A DNA stretch of 64,000 nt from Flammeovirga kamogawensis (GTDB lineage: Bacteria > Bacteroidota > Bacteroidia > Cytophagales > Flammeovirgaceae). The translations under genes and the position numbers were made by a program. Of the stretch, positions 31,564-40,216 are shown one piece after another (the stretch's first letter is position 1; each line of letters starts with the position of its first letter). The DNA is taken from positions 4,155,001-4,219,000 of the forward strand of contig NZ_CP076128.1 in NCBI RefSeq assembly GCF_018736065.1, written 5' to 3'. The notes beneath the pieces are model-generated. The model was not told the DNA's origin, did no database searches, and was given only the letters and a program-made list of their open reading frames with translations.

Positions 31564-31596
31564 TTTGCAAATTAAAACGGAAGATCTTTATATTTG
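31564..31596 (+). promoter_or_regulatory. Promoter of the ilv operon
   Basis: TTTG at 31564-31567, 21-bp spacer, TATATTTG at 31589-31596: exact match to the Bacteroidota TTTG-N19-21-TAnnTTTG promoter. The predicted start is near 31602, about 14 nt before the leader-peptide ATG. The rest of 31387-31563 shows only AT-rich sequence. Confidence 0.7.
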
Positions 31597-31615
31597 ATGT
31601 AAACAATGATCAGAT

Positions 31616-31687
31616 ATGTTGAATAAAACGCAAAATATTGTCCTAATTATTAGAAAAACGATTGTCGTCCTGCTGAAGGAAAGATAA
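31616..31687 (+). CDS. Branched-chain amino acid leader peptide of the ilv operon
   Basis: A 23-codon open frame, ATG at 31616 and TAA at 31685, too short for usual ORF finders. It begins MLNKTQ and contains two regulatory clusters, NIVLII and TIVVLL, ending KER. Eleven of 23 residues are Ile, Val or Leu, exactly the end products of the downstream operon. It sits between a consensus promoter and a competing hairpin pair. Attenuation by ribosome stalling on such codons is well known for ilv and leu operons of enteric bacteria; that this frame is translated is inference from the arrangement. Confidence 0.8.
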   Translation: MLNKTQNIVLIIRKTIVVLLKER

Positions 31688-31772
31688 TGGTCGGGATATA
31701 TATTTTGTGAATACAAGAAATAAATACAGGCCATTGTCAGATTGAATAAAAAATTATGACAGTGGTTTTTTT
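31683..31772 (+). promoter_or_regulatory. ilv attenuator: antiterminator and terminator hairpins
   Basis: Two mutually exclusive helices are visible. Antiterminator: 31683-31692 (GATAATGGTC, covering the leader stop codon) pairs over 10 positions with 31729-31738 (GGCCATTGTC). Terminator: 31731-31739 (CCATTGTCA) pairs with 31757-31765 (TGACAGTGG), followed by seven T. The shared arm means only one can form. A ribosome at the leader stop would cover 31683-31692 and allow termination; a ribosome stalled at Ile/Val/Leu codons (31637-31675) would leave it free and permit readthrough into ilvE. Confidence 0.8.
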
Positions 31773-31834
31773 ATTAAAACATTTTTGTTTCAAAGTTGAT
31801 TTAATTGTTTAAAACATCTATAAACTCTTCAGGT

Positions 31835-32731
31835 ATGTTAAAATATTATGATAAGGATACAGTAATTTTCCATAACGGAGAATTTATCAAGGCTGAAGAG
31901 GCAAAAGCAGATCTTTTTTCGCAGTCTTTGCACTACGGAAACGGAGTATTTGATGCAGTAAGAGCATATGATACAGCCTTAGGTCCACATATTTTTAAAG
32001 CAAGAGAACACTACACAAGATTTGTTGAAGCTGCAAAAACAATGCACTTAAACTTAGATTATTCTGTAGATGAACTTGTAGGAATAACATACCAATTACT
32101 AGAAGAAAATGGATTCAAAGATGCATACGTTAGACCATTGGTTTATGCGAGTGCAAATATGGATTTGACCCCTACTAAAACGCATAATATTTTTATTGCA
32201 GCGTGGAGATGGGATAAATTTTTAGGTAAAGATTTATTAGATATAACAATATCAGCTTATACTCGTCCTAGCCCATATTCTTTTAATGTAGAAGCTAAAA
32301 TTTCAGGGCACTACATTAATTCAATAGTATCTATTGCAGAAGCGAAGGAAAGAGGTTTTGATGATGCAATTTTACTTGATGTAGAAGGGTATGTTGCAGA
32401 AGGAACTGGTGCTAATTTCTTTTTTGAAAAAGATGGTAAACTATTTACCTCAAAGAAAGGACATATATATCCAGGTATAACTCGTGAAGTTGTATTTGGA
32501 ATAGCAAAAAGTCTTGGTGTTGAAGTAGTTGAAGGACAGTTTAAACCAGAAGATTTAAATGATATCGATGGAGCTTTCTTTACAGGTACAGCAGCACAAA
32601 TAACAGGTATTAGCAGCATAGATGGTAAAGCCATGAATAAGGATTGGGATGATACCATTGGTTGTGAAGTATTTGAAAAGTACAGACAATTTGTGACACA
32701 AAGTGAGTACGACAACTACTCAATTATTTAA
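31835..32731 (+). CDS. ilvE: Branched-chain amino acid aminotransferase
   Basis: 298 residues from the ATG at 31835; a TTG 30 bp upstream would add ten residues without family support and sits close behind the attenuator. Fold type IV PLP enzyme: ADLFSQSLHYGNGVFDAVRA (N-terminal signature), AKISGHYINSIVSIAEAKER (Lys Schiff base in AKISGHYIN), EGTGANFFFEKDGK and FFTGTAAQITGI. It makes Ile, Val and Leu from their 2-oxoacids. First structural gene of the ilv operon, directly under the leader attenuator. Confidence 0.93.
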   Translation: MLKYYDKDTVIFHNGEFIKAEEAKADLFSQSLHYGNGVFDAVRAYDTALGPHIFKAREHYTRFVEAAKTMHLNLDYSVDELVGITYQLLEENGFKDAYVRPLVYASANMDLTPTKTHNIFIAAWRWDKFLGKDLLDITISAYTRPSPYSFNVEAKISGHYINSIVSIAEAKERGFDDAILLDVEGYVAEGTGANFFFEKDGKLFTSKKGHIYPGITREVVFGIAKSLGVEVVEGQFKPEDLNDIDGAFFTGTAAQITGISSIDGKAMNKDWDDTIGCEVFEKYRQFVTQSEYDNYSII

Positions 32732-32764: not shown

Positions 32765-34447
32765 ATGGCAGAGGAGTTAAACAAACACAGCCGCACTATT
32801 ACACAAGACGATACACAGCCTGCAGCTCAGGCAATGCTATATGGTATTGGACTTAAAGATGAGGATATGAAAAAGCCTCAAATTGGTATTGCAAGTACTG
32901 GTTACGAGGGTAATACATGTAATATGCACTTGAATGACCTAGCTAAAATAGTTAAGGTAGGTGTTCAGAAAGAAGGCTTAGTAGGTTTAATATTTAATAC
33001 AATTGGTGTAAGTGATGGTATCACAAATGGTACTATTGGTATGCGTTACTCGCTTCCATCAAGAGATATTATTGCAGACTCTGTTGAAACTGTAGTAAAC
33101 GGTCAGTTTTATGATGGTTTAATTACTGTTGTAGGTTGTGATAAGAACATGCCTGGAGCGATGATGGCAATGTGTCGTATTAATCGTCCAACAATTATGT
33201 TGTATGGTGGTACTATTGCATCTGGTTGCTTCAAAAATAAAAAATTAAATATTGTATCAGCATTTGAAGCCTTAGGTGAAAAAATAGCAGGTACTATATC
33301 TGATGAAGATTATAGAGGGGTAATTAAAAATGCTATTCCTGGTGCAGGTGCTTGCGGAGGTATGTACACAGCAAATACAATGGCTTCGGCAATTGAAGCT
33401 ATGGGAATGAGTTTACCTTATTCTTCATCAAACCCTGCAGTTAGTGCAGAGAAAAGAGCTGAATGTAAAAATTTAGGTGCTTCAATGCATCATATATTAA
33501 AGTTAGATCTTAAGCCTTCAGATATACTTACAAAAGCTTCTTTTGAGAATGCTTTGACAGTAATTATGGCTTTAGGTGGATCAACAAATGCTACATTACA
33601 TATGTTGGCAATTGCTAAGGCAGCTGATATCAAATTAACTTTAGATGATATTCAAAGAGTTTCTGATAAAGTACCTTTCTTAGCAGACCTTAAACCTTCT
33701 GGTAAATATTTAATGGAAGATGTTTTTGCAGTAGGAGGTATTCCTGCAGTAATGAGAACATTATTAGATTGGGGATTAATTGATGGAACTTGTATGACCG
33801 TTACAGGAAAAACAATTGCTGAGAATTTAGCAGATGTAAAACCTTTAGGTGGCGAACAAGATTTATTACGTCCTCAAGATAATCCAATTAAATCAACAGG
33901 TCACTTACAAATTCTTTATGGAAATTTAGCAACAGAAGGTTCTGTAGCTAAAATTACCGGTAAAGAAGGAGAAAAATTTGTTGGTCCAGCAAAAGTGTAT
34001 AACGATGAGTTTGCAGTAATTGCAGGAATCCAAGCAGGTGAAGTAAGTAAAGGTGATGTAGTAGTTATTCGTTACGAAGGTCCTAAAGGTGGTCCTGGTA
34101 TGCCGGAAATGCTTAAACCAACATCAGCTATTATGGGTGTAGGTTTAGGTAAAGATGTAGCATTAATTACTGATGGTCGCTTCTCAGGAGGTACTCACGG
34201 TTTTGTAGTGGGGCATATTACTCCAGAAGCTGCAGTTGGTGGTAATATCGCATTAGTGAATGATGGAGATATTATTACAATTGATGCAATAAGTAACCAA
34301 ATTTCTGTTGCTGTTTCTGATGAAGAATTAGCTGAAAGAAGAAAAAATTGGGTTGCTCCGGAACCAAAATTCAAAAAAGGTATTTTATATAAGTATATAA
34401 AGACAGTTTCTTCAGCATCTGAGGGATGTGTAACAGATGAATTTTAA
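32765..34447 (+). CDS. ilvD: Dihydroxy-acid dehydratase
   Basis: 560 residues, full length. Fe-S enzyme that dehydrates 2,3-dihydroxy acids in Ile/Val synthesis. Cluster cysteines lie in [17 protein letters not shown] and [29 protein letters not shown] supplies the third. C-terminal signature [19 protein letters not shown] is intact. It follows ilvE by 33 bp and precedes ilvB by 41 bp in the operon. Confidence 0.96.
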
Positions 34448-34488: not shown

Positions 34489-36231
34489 ATGAGTACAGCG
34501 ACAAAAGAGATGTCCAATGAAGAAAAAGTAGTTGGCCAGACGACAAAAAGAGTAAGTGGAGCAGAGGCAGTGCTGATGGCATTGTTAGAGGAAGGAGTAG
34601 ATACACTTTTTGGTTATCCAGGTGGAGCTATCATGCCATTTTATGATAAACTCTACCATTATGAAGACAAGATTAAGCACTACTTAGTGCGTCATGAGCA
34701 AGGTGCAACACATGCGGCTCAAGGGTATGCTCGAGTCAATCATAAAGTGGGCGTCTGTATTGCAACTTCAGGTCCTGGGGCTACAAACTTAATTACAGGT
34801 TTAGCCGATGCTATGATAGATTCGACACCTATGGTAGCAATTACAGGTCAAGTAGCATCTCATTTATTAGGAACTGATGCTTTTCAGGAAACTGATGTAG
34901 TTGGTATTTCAACTCCTGTTACAAAATGGAATTTTCAAGTAACTAAAGCTTCTGAAATTCCAGAAGCAATGGCGAAAGCATTTTTTATTGCAAGAAGCGG
35001 AAGACCGGGTCCTGTATTAATAGATATTACAAAAGATGCTCAATTCGAAGAATTTGACTTTGAATACAAGCGTTGTGAAAATATTCGTAGTTATAGACCA
35101 GTTCCTGTAGCTACAGAAGAATCTATAGATGCAGCAGCAGTATTACTTAATCAAGCTAAAAAGCCTTATATCCTTGTAGGACATGGTGTAATGCTTTCTA
35201 AAGCTGAAAAAGAATTAATTGCTTTTGCAGAAAAAACAGGTATTCCTATGGCTTCAACTCTTTTAGGGTTGTCTGCCGTACCAGTAGATCATCCTTTATA
35301 CGTTGGCTACTTGGGAATGCATGGTAATTATGGCCCAAATATCAAGACAAACGAATGTGATGTTTTGATTGCTGTAGGTATGCGTTTTGATGACCGTGTA
35401 ACAGGAGACTTATCTCGTTATGCAAAGCAAGCTAAAGTTATTCATATAGAAATTGATCCTTCTGAGATTGATAAGAATGTGAAAACTGAGGTTGCTATCA
35501 TTTCTGATGCAAAAGCAGCTCTTGAGCGTTTATTACCAAAAGTAGAAAAAAGAGAACATTCTGAATGGATTGCAGAGTTCCATGCATGTGATAAAATAGA
35601 AAAAGAAGAAGTTCTAGATTACGCATTAGGTTCATCTACAGAAAAAGTAAAAATGTCAGAAGTAATCAGAATGTTATCTGATAAAACTGATGGTGAAGCA
35701 GTTATTGTAACTGATGTAGGTCAACACCAAATGGAAGCTTCAAGATACTATGAGTTTAAAAAGACAGATAGTATTGTAAGTTCTGGAGGATTAGGGACTA
35801 TGGGATTTGCTTTACCTGCTGCTATTGGAGCAAAAGTTGGAGCACCTGATAGAACTGTTGTCTCTATATCTGGAGATGGAGGTTACCAAATGACTGTACA
35901 AGAATTAGGAACAATATTCCAATACAACATACCTGTAAAGATATTAGTATTGAATAATAGCTTCTTAGGAATGGTACGTCAGTGGCAAGAGTTATTCTTT
36001 GATAGACGTTACTCATTTACAGAAATGGTAAATCCAGATTTTGTAAAACTAGCTGAGTCGTATTATATCAAAGCTGATAAGGCAGAAACAAGAGAATCGT
36101 TAAGCGATAAAATGGACCAATGGTTAGCGTCAGATGGGCCATCTTTCTTGGAAGTAGTTGTAGAACAGGAATCAAACGTATTCCCAATGATACAAACAGG
36201 AGCTGCAGTATCAGAAGTTCGCTTGAAATAA
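34489..36231 (+). CDS. ilvB: Acetolactate synthase, catalytic subunit
   Basis: 580 residues. TPP enzyme that joins pyruvate with pyruvate or 2-oxobutyrate. [20 protein letters not shown] begins the pyrimidine-binding domain, [18 protein letters not shown] has the catalytic Glu, and the TPP/Mg motif is [17 protein letters not shown] to [12 protein letters not shown] domain: [14 protein letters not shown] to GMHGNYGPN. It is followed after 12 bp by its regulatory subunit ilvN. Confidence 0.96.
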
Positions 36232-36243
36232 AAGATTAAGATT

Positions 36244-36783
36244 ATGGAAAAGCAAAGATTCACATTATCGATATTTACAGAGAACGTAGTAGGTTTAACT
36301 AACCGTATCTCTATTATCTTTTCAAGAAGAAAATTAAATATTGAAAGCTTAACAACTTCTGCTTCAGAAGTTGAGCATATTCACCGTTTTACGATTGTAT
36401 TTAATGCAACGGAAAGTGCTGCTCAAAAGCTTTCATTACAAATAGAAAAACAAATTGATGTAGTTCGTTGCTTTCTTTACGAAGATAAGGAAATGATATA
36501 TCAAGAAGTAGCTTTATATAAAGTAGCAGTTGATAATTTAACAGATTCTGATGCAGTAGAAGATATTGTACGTAAGAGTCATGCTAGAATATTAGCCGCT
36601 AAAGCTGATTTTATGGTCATTGAAAAAACGGGCCATGAAGAAGACACTCAAGCATTATATGAAGCATTAAAACCTTTTGGTCTATTGCAATTTGGCCGCT
36701 CAGGTAGGATTGCACTCTCTAAGGAACGTCAAGAAATTAGTACGTTATTAGCAGAGTTCGAACAAGAGAATGCGATTGTGTAA
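36244..36783 (+). CDS. ilvN: Acetolactate synthase, regulatory subunit
   Basis: 179 residues. ACT domain at the N-terminus: FTLSIFTENVVGLTNRISII, FSRRKLNIESLTTSASEVEH and IHRFTIVFNATESAAQ, the valine-binding part; the C-terminal domain contains ADFMVIEKTGHEEDTQALYE and LKPFGLLQFGRSGRIALSK. It activates IlvB and confers valine feedback. The stop codon at 36781-36783 begins a small hairpin before ilvC. Confidence 0.94.
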   Translation: MEKQRFTLSIFTENVVGLTNRISIIFSRRKLNIESLTTSASEVEHIHRFTIVFNATESAAQKLSLQIEKQIDVVRCFLYEDKEMIYQEVALYKVAVDNLTDSDAVEDIVRKSHARILAAKADFMVIEKTGHEEDTQALYEALKPFGLLQFGRSGRIALSKERQEISTLLAEFEQENAIV

Positions 36784-36847: not shown

Positions 36848-37912
36848 ATGGCAGAGATTAATTTCGGAGGAGTAGTTGAGAACGTAGTAATGCGTGAAGA
36901 ATTTCCATTAACAAAAGCACAGGGAATTTTAAAAGAAGAAACTATTGCAGTTATCGGATACGGTGTACAAGGTCCAAGTCAAGCACAAAACATGCGTGAT
37001 AATGGTCTTAATGTAATCGTAGGTCAACGTAAAGGTGGTGCTTCATGGGACAAAGCTGTTGCTGACGGTTGGGTACCAGGTGAAACACTTTTCGAAATCG
37101 GTGAAGCAGCTGAAAAAGGTTCTATTATCTGTTACCTTCTTTCTGATGCAGCTCAAATTGCTGTATGGCCACAATTAAAAGAGAAATTAACTCCAGGTAA
37201 AGCACTTTATTTCTCTCACGGATTTGGTGTAACTTACCATGAGCGTACTAACATCGTTCCTCCTAAGGATATTGATGTGATTTTAGTAGCTCCTAAAGGA
37301 TCAGGTACTTCTTTAAGAACAATGTTCTTAGAAGGTCGTGGTTTGAACTCTTCTTATGCAATCTACCAAGATGCTACAGGAAATGCTTATAACAGAACTA
37401 TCTCTTTAGGTATTGGTGTTGGAGCTGGATATTTATTCCCAACTGACTTCAAAAAAGAAGTATTCTCTGACCTTACAGGTGAGCGTGGTTCTTTAATGGG
37501 TGCTATTCAAGGTTTATTCGAAGCACAATATGATGTGTTAAGAGAAAACGGACACTCTCCATCTGAAGCATTTAACGAAACTGTTGAAGAGTTAACTCAA
37601 TCTTTAATGCCATTAGTTGCTAAAAATGGAATGGATTGGATGTATGCTAACTGTTCTACTACAGCACAACGTGGTGCATTAGATTGGAAAGATAAATTCC
37701 GTGATGCAGTTCGTCCAGTAGTAGAAGATTTATATCGTTCAGTAGCTACAGGTGAAGAAGCACAACGTTCTATCGATACTAACTCACAACCAGATTACCG
37801 TGAGAAATTAGACGAAGAATTACGTGTATTACGTGAGTCTGAAATGTGGAGAGCAGGTGCTGCAGTACGTGCACTTCGTCCAGAAAATCAAGAAGTAGAA
37901 GCTGAGGCGTAA
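36848..37912 (+). CDS. ilvC: Ketol-acid reductoisomerase (NADP+)
   Basis: 354 residues from ATG at 36848; a longer frame opening at 36770 overlaps ilvN out of frame and lacks family similarity. NADPH-binding TIAVIGYGVQGPSQAQNMRD, the Mg/substrate segment SDLTGERGSLMGAIQGLFEA, and NCSTTAQRGALDW are visible. Catalyses isomeroreduction of acetolactate and acetohydroxybutyrate. Codon use looks richer in C-ending codons than its neighbours, as in highly expressed genes. Last gene before a strong terminator. Confidence 0.95.
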   Translation: MAEINFGGVVENVVMREEFPLTKAQGILKEETIAVIGYGVQGPSQAQNMRDNGLNVIVGQRKGGASWDKAVADGWVPGETLFEIGEAAEKGSIICYLLSDAAQIAVWPQLKEKLTPGKALYFSHGFGVTYHERTNIVPPKDIDVILVAPKGSGTSLRTMFLEGRGLNSSYAIYQDATGNAYNRTISLGIGVGAGYLFPTDFKKEVFSDLTGERGSLMGAIQGLFEAQYDVLRENGHSPSEAFNETVEELTQSLMPLVAKNGMDWMYANCSTTAQRGALDWKDKFRDAVRPVVEDLYRSVATGEEAQRSIDTNSQPDYREKLDEELRVLRESEMWRAGAAVRALRPENQEVEAEA

Positions 37913-37933: not shown

Positions 37934-37962
37934 AAAAGGGATGGCTTAGGCTATCCCTTTTT
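37934..37962 (+). terminator. Terminator of the ilvEDBNC operon
   Basis: 11-bp stem AAAAGGGATGG / CTATCCCTTTT (two G-T type pairs) with a 6-nt loop, then T-run. Confidence 0.85.
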
Positions 37963-38034: not shown

Positions 38035-39303
38035 ATGCAAGAAACAGAAGAATTTGTAGACTTACCAAGTGTTGAGTCAATAGTTAAAGCACATAGAAAA
38101 CTAAAGGACGTGGTTACGCGTACGCCTTTAATGAGAAACTTGAACTTATCAGAAAGATATCAAGCAGATATTTGGCTTAAGAGAGAGGATCTTCAAATTG
38201 TGCGCTCATATAAACTTAGAGGTGCATTCAATAAGATATCTTCTTTAGATAAAGAAGAACAAAAAAGAGGTATTGTATGTGCTAGTGCTGGAAACCATGC
38301 ACAAGGAGTAGCATATTCTTGTAAATTGTTGGGAATTCATGGTGTTATTTATATGCCTGCTCCAACACCTAAGCAAAAGGTGAGTCAGGTAAGAATGTGG
38401 GGTAAGGACAAAGTCGAAGTAGTGCTTATTGGCGATACTTTTGATGATGCTTATGCTGCAGCAATGAAACGTTGTGAAGAAGAAGGAAGAGTTTTTATTC
38501 ATCCTTTTGATGACCCTAAAGTTATTGAAGGTCAAGGTACTGTTGGGTTAGAGATTTTAGAAGATGCTAAAGAAGAAATAGACTACCTTGTGATGCCAAT
38601 AGGTGGAGGCGGACTATCTTCTGGTGTTGGAAGTTATTTTCAACAAATAAGCCCAGCTACAAAAATTTATGGTGTTGAGCCAGAAGGTGCTCCAGCAATG
38701 AAAGAATCAATTATTCAAGATAGAGTAGTTACTCTAGATAAAATTGAGAAATTTGTAGATGGTGCAGCGGTTCAGAGAGTAGGTGATAATACTTTTAGAA
38801 TTGCAAAACAGTTTCTAGAAGACGTTATATTAGTTCCTGAAGGAAAAGTATGCTCAACAATCTTAAGATTGTATAACGAAGATGCTATTGTAGTAGAGCC
38901 AGCAGGAGCGTTGTCTATATCTGCTCTAGATGCAATCAAAGATGAAATAAAGGGTAAGAAGGTAGTATGTGTTGTAAGTGGTTCTAATAATGATATTGGA
39001 CGTATGGAAGAGATCAAACAGAGGTCTCTTATATATGAGGGTTACAAACATTACTTTATGATCCGTTTTCCTCAAAGAGCGGGAGCTTTAAGAGAATACT
39101 TAATTGAAATTTTAGGTCCGAATGATGATATTTGTCATTTTGAATATACTAAGAAAGTCAATAGAGAAAAAGCTCCAGCAATTGTAGGAATCGAGGTGAA
39201 ATCTCCTGAAGATTTTGATGCTTTAATGATTAGAATGGAAAAAAGAGGTTACAAATATGAACTACTGAATGAAAATGAGGATATGTTCCATTTTTTAATC
39301 TGA
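38035..39303 (+). CDS. ilvA: Threonine ammonia-lyase (deaminase), short form
   Basis: 422 residues. PLP enzyme giving 2-oxobutyrate, the entry to isoleucine synthesis. VVTRTPLMRNLNLSERYQAD and LKREDLQIVRSYKLRGAFNK (PLP Lys in SYKLRGA), ASAGNHAQGVAYSCKLLG, PIGGGGLSSGVGSYFQQ are the catalytic part; the C-terminal YFMIRFPQRAGALREYLIEI is a single ACT-like regulatory domain, so this is the short regulated form. It stands 122 bp after ilvC behind a terminator, so it may have separate transcription. Confidence 0.94.
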   Translation: MQETEEFVDLPSVESIVKAHRKLKDVVTRTPLMRNLNLSERYQADIWLKREDLQIVRSYKLRGAFNKISSLDKEEQKRGIVCASAGNHAQGVAYSCKLLGIHGVIYMPAPTPKQKVSQVRMWGKDKVEVVLIGDTFDDAYAAAMKRCEEEGRVFIHPFDDPKVIEGQGTVGLEILEDAKEEIDYLVMPIGGGGLSSGVGSYFQQISPATKIYGVEPEGAPAMKESIIQDRVVTLDKIEKFVDGAAVQRVGDNTFRIAKQFLEDVILVPEGKVCSTILRLYNEDAIVVEPAGALSISALDAIKDEIKGKKVVCVVSGSNNDIGRMEEIKQRSLIYEGYKHYFMIRFPQRAGALREYLIEILGPNDDICHFEYTKKVNREKAPAIVGIEVKSPEDFDALMIRMEKRGYKYELLNENEDMFHFLI

Positions 39304-39454: not shown

Positions 39455-39531
39455 GGAGCAGTAGTTCAGTTGGTTAGAATACCTGCCTGTCACGCAGGGG
39501 GTCGCGGGTTCGAGTCCCGTCTGTTCCGCCA
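39455..39531 (+). tRNA. tRNA-Asp (GTC), copy 1
   Basis: 77 nt with encoded CCA. Acceptor stem GGAGCAG / CTGTTCC, anticodon loop CTGTCAC (GTC, Asp), T loop GTTCGAGTC. First of seven identical copies; preceded by a different flank (CAATT) from the others. Confidence 0.97.
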
Positions 39532-39568
39532 ACAAGTCTTTCATCAAGACTTTCAAAACTAGATGACT

Positions 39569-39645
39569 GGAGCAGTAGTTCAGTTGGTTAGAATACCTGC
39601 CTGTCACGCAGGGGGTCGCGGGTTCGAGTCCCGTCTGTTCCGCCA
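39569..39645 (+). tRNA. tRNA-Asp (GTC), copy 2
   Basis: Identical to copy 1, 114 bp downstream, encoded CCA. The intervening 37-bp spacer holds an AAGTCTT / AAGACTT hairpin. Confidence 0.97.
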
Positions 39646-39682
39646 ACAAGTCTTTCATCAAGACTTTCAAAACTAGATGACT

Positions 39683-39759
39683 GGAGCAGTAGTTCAGTTG
39701 GTTAGAATACCTGCCTGTCACGCAGGGGGTCGCGGGTTCGAGTCCCGTCTGTTCCGCCA
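39683..39759 (+). tRNA. tRNA-Asp (GTC), copy 3
   Basis: Identical 77-nt tRNA with CCA; preceded by the same 37-bp spacer. Confidence 0.97.
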
Positions 39760-39796
39760 ACAAGTCTTTCATCAAGACTTTCAAAACTAGATGACT

Positions 39797-39873
39797 GGAG
39801 CAGTAGTTCAGTTGGTTAGAATACCTGCCTGTCACGCAGGGGGTCGCGGGTTCGAGTCCCGTCTGTTCCGCCA
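39797..39873 (+). tRNA. tRNA-Asp (GTC), copy 4
   Basis: Identical 77-nt tRNA with CCA; same spacer. Confidence 0.97.
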
Positions 39874-39910
39874 ACAAGTCTTTCATCAAGACTTTCAAAA
39901 CTAGATGACT

Positions 39911-39987
39911 GGAGCAGTAGTTCAGTTGGTTAGAATACCTGCCTGTCACGCAGGGGGTCGCGGGTTCGAGTCCCGTCTGTTCCGCCA
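39911..39987 (+). tRNA. tRNA-Asp (GTC), copy 5
   Basis: Identical 77-nt tRNA with CCA. The spacer after it carries one extra A (38 bp). Confidence 0.97.
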
Positions 39988-40025
39988 ACAAGTCTTTCAT
40001 CAAGACTTTCAAAAACTAGATGACT

Positions 40026-40102
40026 GGAGCAGTAGTTCAGTTGGTTAGAATACCTGCCTGTCACGCAGGGGGTCGCGGGTTCGAGTCCCGTCTGTTCCGC
40101 CA
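40026..40102 (+). tRNA. tRNA-Asp (GTC), copy 6
   Basis: Identical 77-nt tRNA with CCA, 115 bp from copy 5 because of a one-base insertion in the A-run of the spacer. Confidence 0.97.
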
Positions 40103-40139
40103 ACAAGTCTTTCATCAAGACTTTCAAAACTAGATGACT

Positions 40140-40216
40140 GGAGCAGTAGTTCAGTTGGTTAGAATACCTGCCTGTCACGCAGGGGGTCGCGGGTTCGAGT
40201 CCCGTCTGTTCCGCCA
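40140..40216 (+). tRNA. tRNA-Asp (GTC), copy 7
   Basis: Last identical copy with CCA; its 3' flank differs and leads into a terminator. Confidence 0.97.

Follow-up and report, generated by a model that had tools for sequence, protein, structure and literature searches.

The interval in front of the ilvEDBNC operon of Flammeovirga kamogawensis (Bacteroidota, Cytophagales) is very probably a ribosome-mediated transcription attenuator, as judged from its anatomy, its recurrence among relatives, the matching of its helix partners and its computed energetics. A preliminary description had claimed such an attenuator before ilvEDBNC, and the claim is borne out by the anatomy, by computed folding and by recurrence. 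The window analysed is the whole stretch of 64,000 nt that spans positions 4,155,001 to 4,219,000 of the forward strand of contig NZ_CP076128.1 (assembly GCF_018736065.1), and all positions below are numbered within it, all features lying on the plus strand. The operon consists of ilvE (branched-chain aminotransferase, 31835-32731, ATG at 31835), ilvD (dihydroxy-acid dehydratase, 32765-34447), ilvB (acetolactate synthase large subunit, 34489-36231) and ilvN (acetolactate synthase small subunit, 36244-36783), each passing a curated NCBIfam cut-off, followed by ilvC (ketol-acid reductoisomerase, 36848-37912), which passed its NCBIfam cut-off with a start chosen here, the mechanical ORF beginning at 36770. 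A search of named genomes returned 63 loci, from which 58 titled Betaproteobacteria were left out; in the remaining five Flammeovirga records, IlvE is 86-93% identical to that of the window. A terminator-like hairpin with a T-run, recognized by eye in the sequence 3' of ilvC (37936-37962), suggests that the operon ends ahead of an ilvA-like threonine ammonia-lyase gene (38035-39303). Just downstream of the latter lie seven tandem tRNA-Asp(GTC) genes (39455-40216, spaced by about 114 bp), and the minus-strand ORFs drawn across this array are artefacts.

The leader ORF, MLNKTQNIVLIIRKTIVVLLKER including its stop codon, extends from the ATG at 31616 to the TAA ending at 31687 and is conserved in the genus. 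Its coordinates, its 23 codons and its total of 11 Ile, Val and Leu codons were given correctly in the preliminary description, while the two clusters said to contain all of these hold only 10, the eleventh being Leu codon 2. A short ORF rich in Ile, Val and Leu codons thus stands before an operon that makes those very amino acids; all three of its Val codons are GTC, and two of its four Leu codons are CTG. A Pfam profile scan of two leader peptides (that of the window and that of locus L003) matched no family, 23 amino acids being little for a profile. The peptide QNI(V/I)L is common to 9 of 9 genus leaders, as would be expected if the leader acted as a sequence-specific arrest peptide, or by translational coupling, and not through codon supply; such a mode of action is very unlikely, given that the peptides are very different outside the family while their I/V/L content is kept, and that 147 nt with a terminator in between separate the leader stop from ilvE.

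The promoter is less clear-cut than had been described. The site presented as a consensus promoter is only a 9/12 match to the sigma-70 motif, and shuffled sequences do as well (6 such sites against 8.6 expected); part of this match is the TTG at 31565-31567, which we take to be a candidate -33 element. The motif TAnnTTTG is the -7 promoter motif of Bacteroidota, and an exact copy, TATATTTG, occurs at 31589-31596. It is enriched 5' of leaders, being present at 22/81 of them against 13/275 control windows farther upstream, yet only in a minority. Transcription would start just 5' of 31616. We infer that the promoter is active, that the leader is translated, that ribosomes stall on it and that transcripts terminate at the attenuator.

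In the predicted fold, the leader RNA has the anatomy of the classical four segments plus an outer stem. Segment 1 (31658-31680, from the fold and the swap test described below) comprises the 5' side of a protector hairpin and its small loop, and within it the control codons ATT GTC (31661-31666) are folded against 31683-31688. Segment 2, the antiterminator 5' arm GATAATGGTC (31683-31692), covers the leader stop codon (31685-31687); segment 3, the antiterminator 3' arm GGCCATTGTC (31729-31738), overlaps the terminator 5' arm (31731-31739); and segment 4 (31757-31765) is the terminator 3' arm, followed by a U-tract of seven T (31766-31772). The outer stem joins early leader codons (31629-31644) to 31693-31709, according to the minimum free energy (MFE) fold and the swap test. 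The two helices of the preliminary description are right as given, namely an antiterminator of 10 pairs, including G-U, between 31683-31692 and 31729-31738, whose 5' arm spans the stop codon, and a terminator of 31731-31739 with 31757-31765 and T7 that has an arm in common with it. Of the mechanism then proposed, the freeing of segment 2 by a stalled ribosome is reproduced in computed folding, while the model had neither the outer stem nor the protector (1:2) hairpin.

Hence the sequence itself contains a predicted intrinsic terminator between the leader and ilvE (31731-31765 plus T7), and by computation the antiterminator and the terminator exclude each other, a ribosome on the stop codon masks the antiterminator, and a protector helix in the computed window fold sets the control codons against the antiterminator arm. 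The region 31600-31775 (176 nt) folds with an MFE of -42.6 kcal/mol against a mean of -26.2 in shuffles (z -4.9; 0 of 200 as low). A simple terminator scan did not list the hairpin 31731-31765, because its loop measures 17 nt and the scan allows 3-8.

Switching was computed with a ribosome model, in which the A site is placed on every codon in turn, the ribosome hides 15 nt counted from that codon's first base, and pairing probabilities (P) are obtained for the free downstream RNA. With the A site at codons 12-18 of the window leader, the antiterminator is favoured (P(2:3) 0.83-0.99), and at codons 19-24, up to the stop codon, the terminator is favoured (P(3:4) 0.92-1.00). Changing the footprint from 12 to 18 nt keeps the flip between codons 17 and 20, shifting it by about one codon. 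Stalls at codons 10-11 (Leu10, Ile11) give P(2:3) of just 0.17 and 0.22 with the 15-nt footprint; this is a weak hint, dependent on the footprint chosen, that the main signals may be Val and Ile and not Leu. In the absence of a ribosome, P(3:4) is 0.96-0.97, and P(2:3) ahead of segment 4 synthesis amounts to 0.07-0.13; the terminator wins here because 31629-31644 pairs with 31693-31709 and ATT GTC pairs with the antiterminator arm.

The mechanism that we propose is as follows: (i) with Ile and Val plentiful, the ribosome would reach the stop codon and cover 31683-31692, so that segment 3 would pair with segment 4 and RNA polymerase would stop in the T-run near 31772; (ii) with charged Val- or Ile-tRNA in short supply, the ribosome would stall at the codons of 31661-31669, open the protector hairpin and free segment 2, upon which the antiterminator 2:3 would form and the operon would be transcribed; and (iii) without translation, the long stem and the protector would hide segment 2 and the terminator would win.

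A stable, structured leader with alternative folds is also what a ligand-binding riboswitch or a T-box would offer, in which an amino acid or tRNA is sensed directly and the ORF is incidental. The amino-acid leader families of Rfam comprise His, Leu, Thr, Trp and Phe leaders and ilvB-type motifs; none of these, and no T-box, matched the interval at gathering score or among its 8 hits with E<=10. Indeed no Rfam family reached its gathering score there, the best sub-threshold E value being 0.17, and the features that recur across the sampled genomes are the coding content and an arm spanning the stop codon, while the letters of the arms change, which together leave direct sensing exceedingly improbable next to ribosome-mediated attenuation.

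Leaders and helices are conserved in relatives, contrary to what the preliminary description had named as grounds for abandoning its claim. By eye, a leader and a hairpin are present in 9 of 9 Flammeovirga genomes, in 7 of 8 other genomes of the family with a match to the ilvE query (the exception being locus L020) and at 7 of 9 ilvE loci at the level of the order (L017 and L023 being without). To survey the phylum, ilvD was searched in 198 phylum genomes (79 matched) and 118 order genomes (73 matched), a sample that includes relatives of one another. Six same-genus places were left out, as were ten phylum places that the window or the order list already covered, and 138 ilvD upstream stretches were kept, 3 of them shortened by contig ends. 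The strict scan required 6 or more I/L/V within 8 codons of a short ORF and a terminator 30-80 nt past its stop codon. It matched 68 of the 138 upstream regions and left 70 unmatched, whereas the reverse strands gave 0/138 and five rounds of dinucleotide shuffling gave 0, 0, 0, 1 and 0 of 138. By rank, the matches were distributed as 35/68 in the order, 15/32 in the rest of the class and 18/38 in other classes, and by hand tally they are spread unevenly over 17 families; a single family (f41, 17/20 places) supplies 17 of the 18 matches in classes other than that of the window, the remaining families there giving 1/18.

The window leader itself, like that of L002, has 5/8 I/L/V and misses the strict cut, which is passed by 13 of the 15 genus and family loci tested. 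A looser cut that admits it gave 75/138 forward, 4/138 reverse and 0, 0 and 2 in shuffles. Two strict matches (L126 and L129) look false by eye but remain included in all figures. An initial scan, which allowed a wide distance between stop and terminator and accepted weaker terminators, had given 75/138 forward but 16/138 reverse and was replaced.

This recurrence bears on the simplest alternative, a plain intrinsic terminator without regulation, beside an ORF that AT-rich sequence has made I/L/V-rich by chance. Small ORFs of that kind are common in AT-rich DNA, and the promoter match is at chance level; the excess of forward-strand matches over reverse strands and shuffles, together with a partner matching equalled in none of 2000 permutations and a synonymous codon bias confined to the leader frame (both detailed below), nevertheless makes chance an extremely unlikely explanation.

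The attenuator reading was further examined through its helices, by an alignment-free swap test in which the native pairing partners of every leader are set against partners exchanged among 80 leaders (2000 permutations), the duplicates L004 and L006 being omitted. Large effects were obtained for the antiterminator 2:3 (native 19.1 versus permuted 13.4) and the terminator 3:4 (27.6 versus 15.8), and small ones for the protector 1:2 (13.83 versus 12.68) and the outer stem (13.6 versus 12.0), the native value being reached in 0/2000 permutations in all four; control segments not expected to pair gave 9.7 versus 10.0, reached by 1763/2000. The preliminary description had suggested compensatory changes in both helices as a check; across the 80 leaders, partners match better within a locus than after swapping, while covariation within the genus is weak and, for the antiterminator and the terminator, non-significant. 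The covariation set comprised the window, L003, L005, L007, L008 and L009 plus the neighbours L010 and L011, with the near-identical L002, L004 and L006 left out, and across these eight sequences the helices are nearly invariant. The antiterminator and the terminator each show one double change in this set (reached by 64/500 and 114/500 shuffles, respectively), and the outer stem shows 3 (reached by 19/500).

Across 81 leaders, the I/L/V share tops at 0.91, twelve codons ahead of the stop. The ribosome model gave, for 82 leaders at the stage when segment 4 has yet to be transcribed, an average P(2:3) of 0.00 for a ribosome on the stop codon and of 0.85 for one 11-13 codons earlier; in 64 of the 82, P(2:3) exceeds 0.8 within codons 5-15 before the stop and is below 0.2 at the stop. 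The antiterminator arm lies under the stop-codon ribosome in 82/82, a figure partly built into the search window. Since P(2:3) ahead of segment 4 synthesis averages 0.52 across the 82 leaders without a ribosome, the hiding of segment 2 in the absence of translation would not be general. At full-length equilibrium, strong switching is seen in only 16 of 81 leaders, the genus loci L003, L005 and L007 being among those that do not switch, and equilibrium folding was dropped as a general proof for that reason. Because so few switch at equilibrium, most leaders would need the antiterminator to form first, that is, kinetically; winning by earlier formation is normal for antiterminators in such systems.

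The leaders of family f41, which belongs to another class (L177, L182, L187, L192 and similar ones), have a recurrent tail resembling Tyr-Arg-Pro-Gly-Lys, possibly kept since its codons form a hairpin arm.

A loose scan of 1.5 kb upstream found no His leaders at 16 HisG loci and no Leu leaders at 20 LeuA-model loci of relatives (3 of the 20 being weak or paralogous: L294, L296 and L297), with coverage confined to the upstream region of that gene. The sequence evidence speaks against His or Leu attenuators being general in the genomes of the sampled relatives.

The dominance of GTC among the Val codons of the leaders was unexpected. In the long ORFs of the window, GTC makes up 4.3% of Val codons, as against 3/3 in the leader, and CTG, used there for half of the Leu codons, amounts to 1.8%. 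Codons were counted in 55 representative leaders, obtained by merging at 70% ungapped identity over the last 66 nt, and expected counts were derived from the long ORFs in the stretch that carries the leader concerned. GTC was found 87 times against 19.2 expected and GTA 13 times against 50.4; among Ile codons, ATT was in excess (179 versus 116.1) and ATC (33 versus 66.5) and ATA (20 versus 49.4) were depleted; the Leu codon CTA occurred 44 times against 15.8. Owing to the depletion of ATC, the bias is no general taste for C-ending codons. The GTC excess is present separately in all four kinship sets and is specific to the leader frame, in which GTC occupies 0.080 of the slots, as compared with 0.003 and 0.004 when the other frames are read. 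With the window left out (54 representatives), the Ile codon right after GTC is ATT in 42/42 cases and ATC or ATA in 0/42, ATT accounting for 138/193 elsewhere. In-frame GTC ATT, often GTC ATT ATT, recurs across kinship classes, for instance at L169, L177, L180 and L128, and may reflect a codon-pair effect, common ancestry or some other cause.

Two simple accounts of the bias are insufficient. One is that GTC is there only for pairing; its share of Val codons is 0.63 (71/113) at paired and 0.44 (19/43) at unpaired positions, against about 0.13 expected, so that base pairing accounts for part of the bias. The other account, that GTC is used because tRNA-Val(GAC) is missing, starts from the genome that carries the window, which has eight tRNA-Val(UAC) genes and in which no tRNA-Val(GAC) was found by an Rfam tRNA search, BLAST and a pattern scan; the Rfam search was incomplete, with 150 of 661 candidates scored and 89 matches listed, these being without tRNA-Ile(GAT) and tRNA-Ala. 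In the phylum sample, however, a tRNA-Val(GAC) pattern is present in 153/198 genomes and a UAC pattern in 188/198, and among 41 leaders the GTC share is 0.72 with the GAC pattern (24 leaders) versus 0.52 without it (17 leaders). The matches listed for the F. kamogawensis genome include tandem arrays of a single kind (8 tRNA-Val(UAC), 7 tRNA-Glu, 6 with anticodon CAT and 7 tRNA-Asp) and an array of 8 tRNA-Lys with a tRNA-Leu(GAG) among them; one array locus (L237) lies at 147158-147902 of contig C1 of that genome, outside the numbering of the window.

A theory published for E. coli holds that leader codons are those whose reading drops most sharply on starvation (PMC1183508, which also names attenuation of ilvGMEDA). 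By selective charging, abundant GTT codons would drain a single-copy tRNA-Val(GAC), and the reading of GTC would fail first; in genomes without a detected tRNA-Val(GAC), such as that of F. kamogawensis, U34 would read GTC poorly. GTC may thus perhaps be a sensing codon in Bacteroidota leaders.

As modelled, the Flammeovirga switch works like the enteric ilv attenuator, and every sequence-level feature of that mechanism which we tested was found. The attenuator of E. coli ilvGMEDA has alternative hairpins and a terminator, as in Flammeovirga, and its short leader, ilvL, likewise places Ile, Val and Leu codons ahead of ilv genes. It differs in that ilvL has 32 codons with Val mostly as GTG (5/6), against 23 codons and GTC (3/3) in Flammeovirga, where, moreover, the stop codon of the leader itself lies within the antiterminator arm and the gene order is ilvEDBNC.

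Within the same phylum, leader-peptide attenuation has been suggested for amino-acid operons of Flavobacterium psychrophilum, with a leader peptide and a structured 5' region (PMC9723704); the section concerned mentions neither an ilv leader nor a model nor a survey of the phylum. For B. thetaiotaomicron, PMC7366714 mentions short ORFs that resemble leader peptides, and a table of PMC2864571 lists Bacteroid-trp (RF01692) as a putative cis-regulatory RNA of Bacteroidetes; the latter belongs to another pathway by its name and has no match in the window. Writing in 2010, the authors of PMC2965389 knew of no demonstration of leader peptides outside Proteobacteria and Actinobacteria prior to their own case, from Firmicutes. 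Attenuation of a branched-chain operon linked to a uORF is also described for ilvBNC of Corynebacterium, a member of a different phylum, in PMC11857589 and PMC10272879, and we liken the two by description. Among the open-licence matches listed, no paper dealt with an ilv leader in Bacteroidota or with the GTC bias; Vitreschak et al. 2004 and Lopatovskaya et al. 2010 are outside that scope.

Overall, this kind of attenuation is already known; what makes the case interesting is how widely the design occurs in the sampled phylum, along with the bias in valine codons. The F. kamogawensis leader offers a compact and legible case of enteric-type attenuation beyond the phyla in which that mechanism was elucidated, and comparison places the same design ahead of the ilv genes in roughly half of the ilvD-bearing Bacteroidota sampled. 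We propose tentatively, with somewhat less than even confidence, that attenuation of ilv genes is widespread in Bacteroidota and perhaps of ancient origin, with GTC as a fixed sensing codon, the Val codon that fails first. The strong, frame-specific GTC bias provides a natural test, across genomes with differing sets of valine tRNAs, of whether leader codons are chosen for sensitivity to starvation; if the proposal is true, the choice of leader codons would have been selected for that sensitivity.
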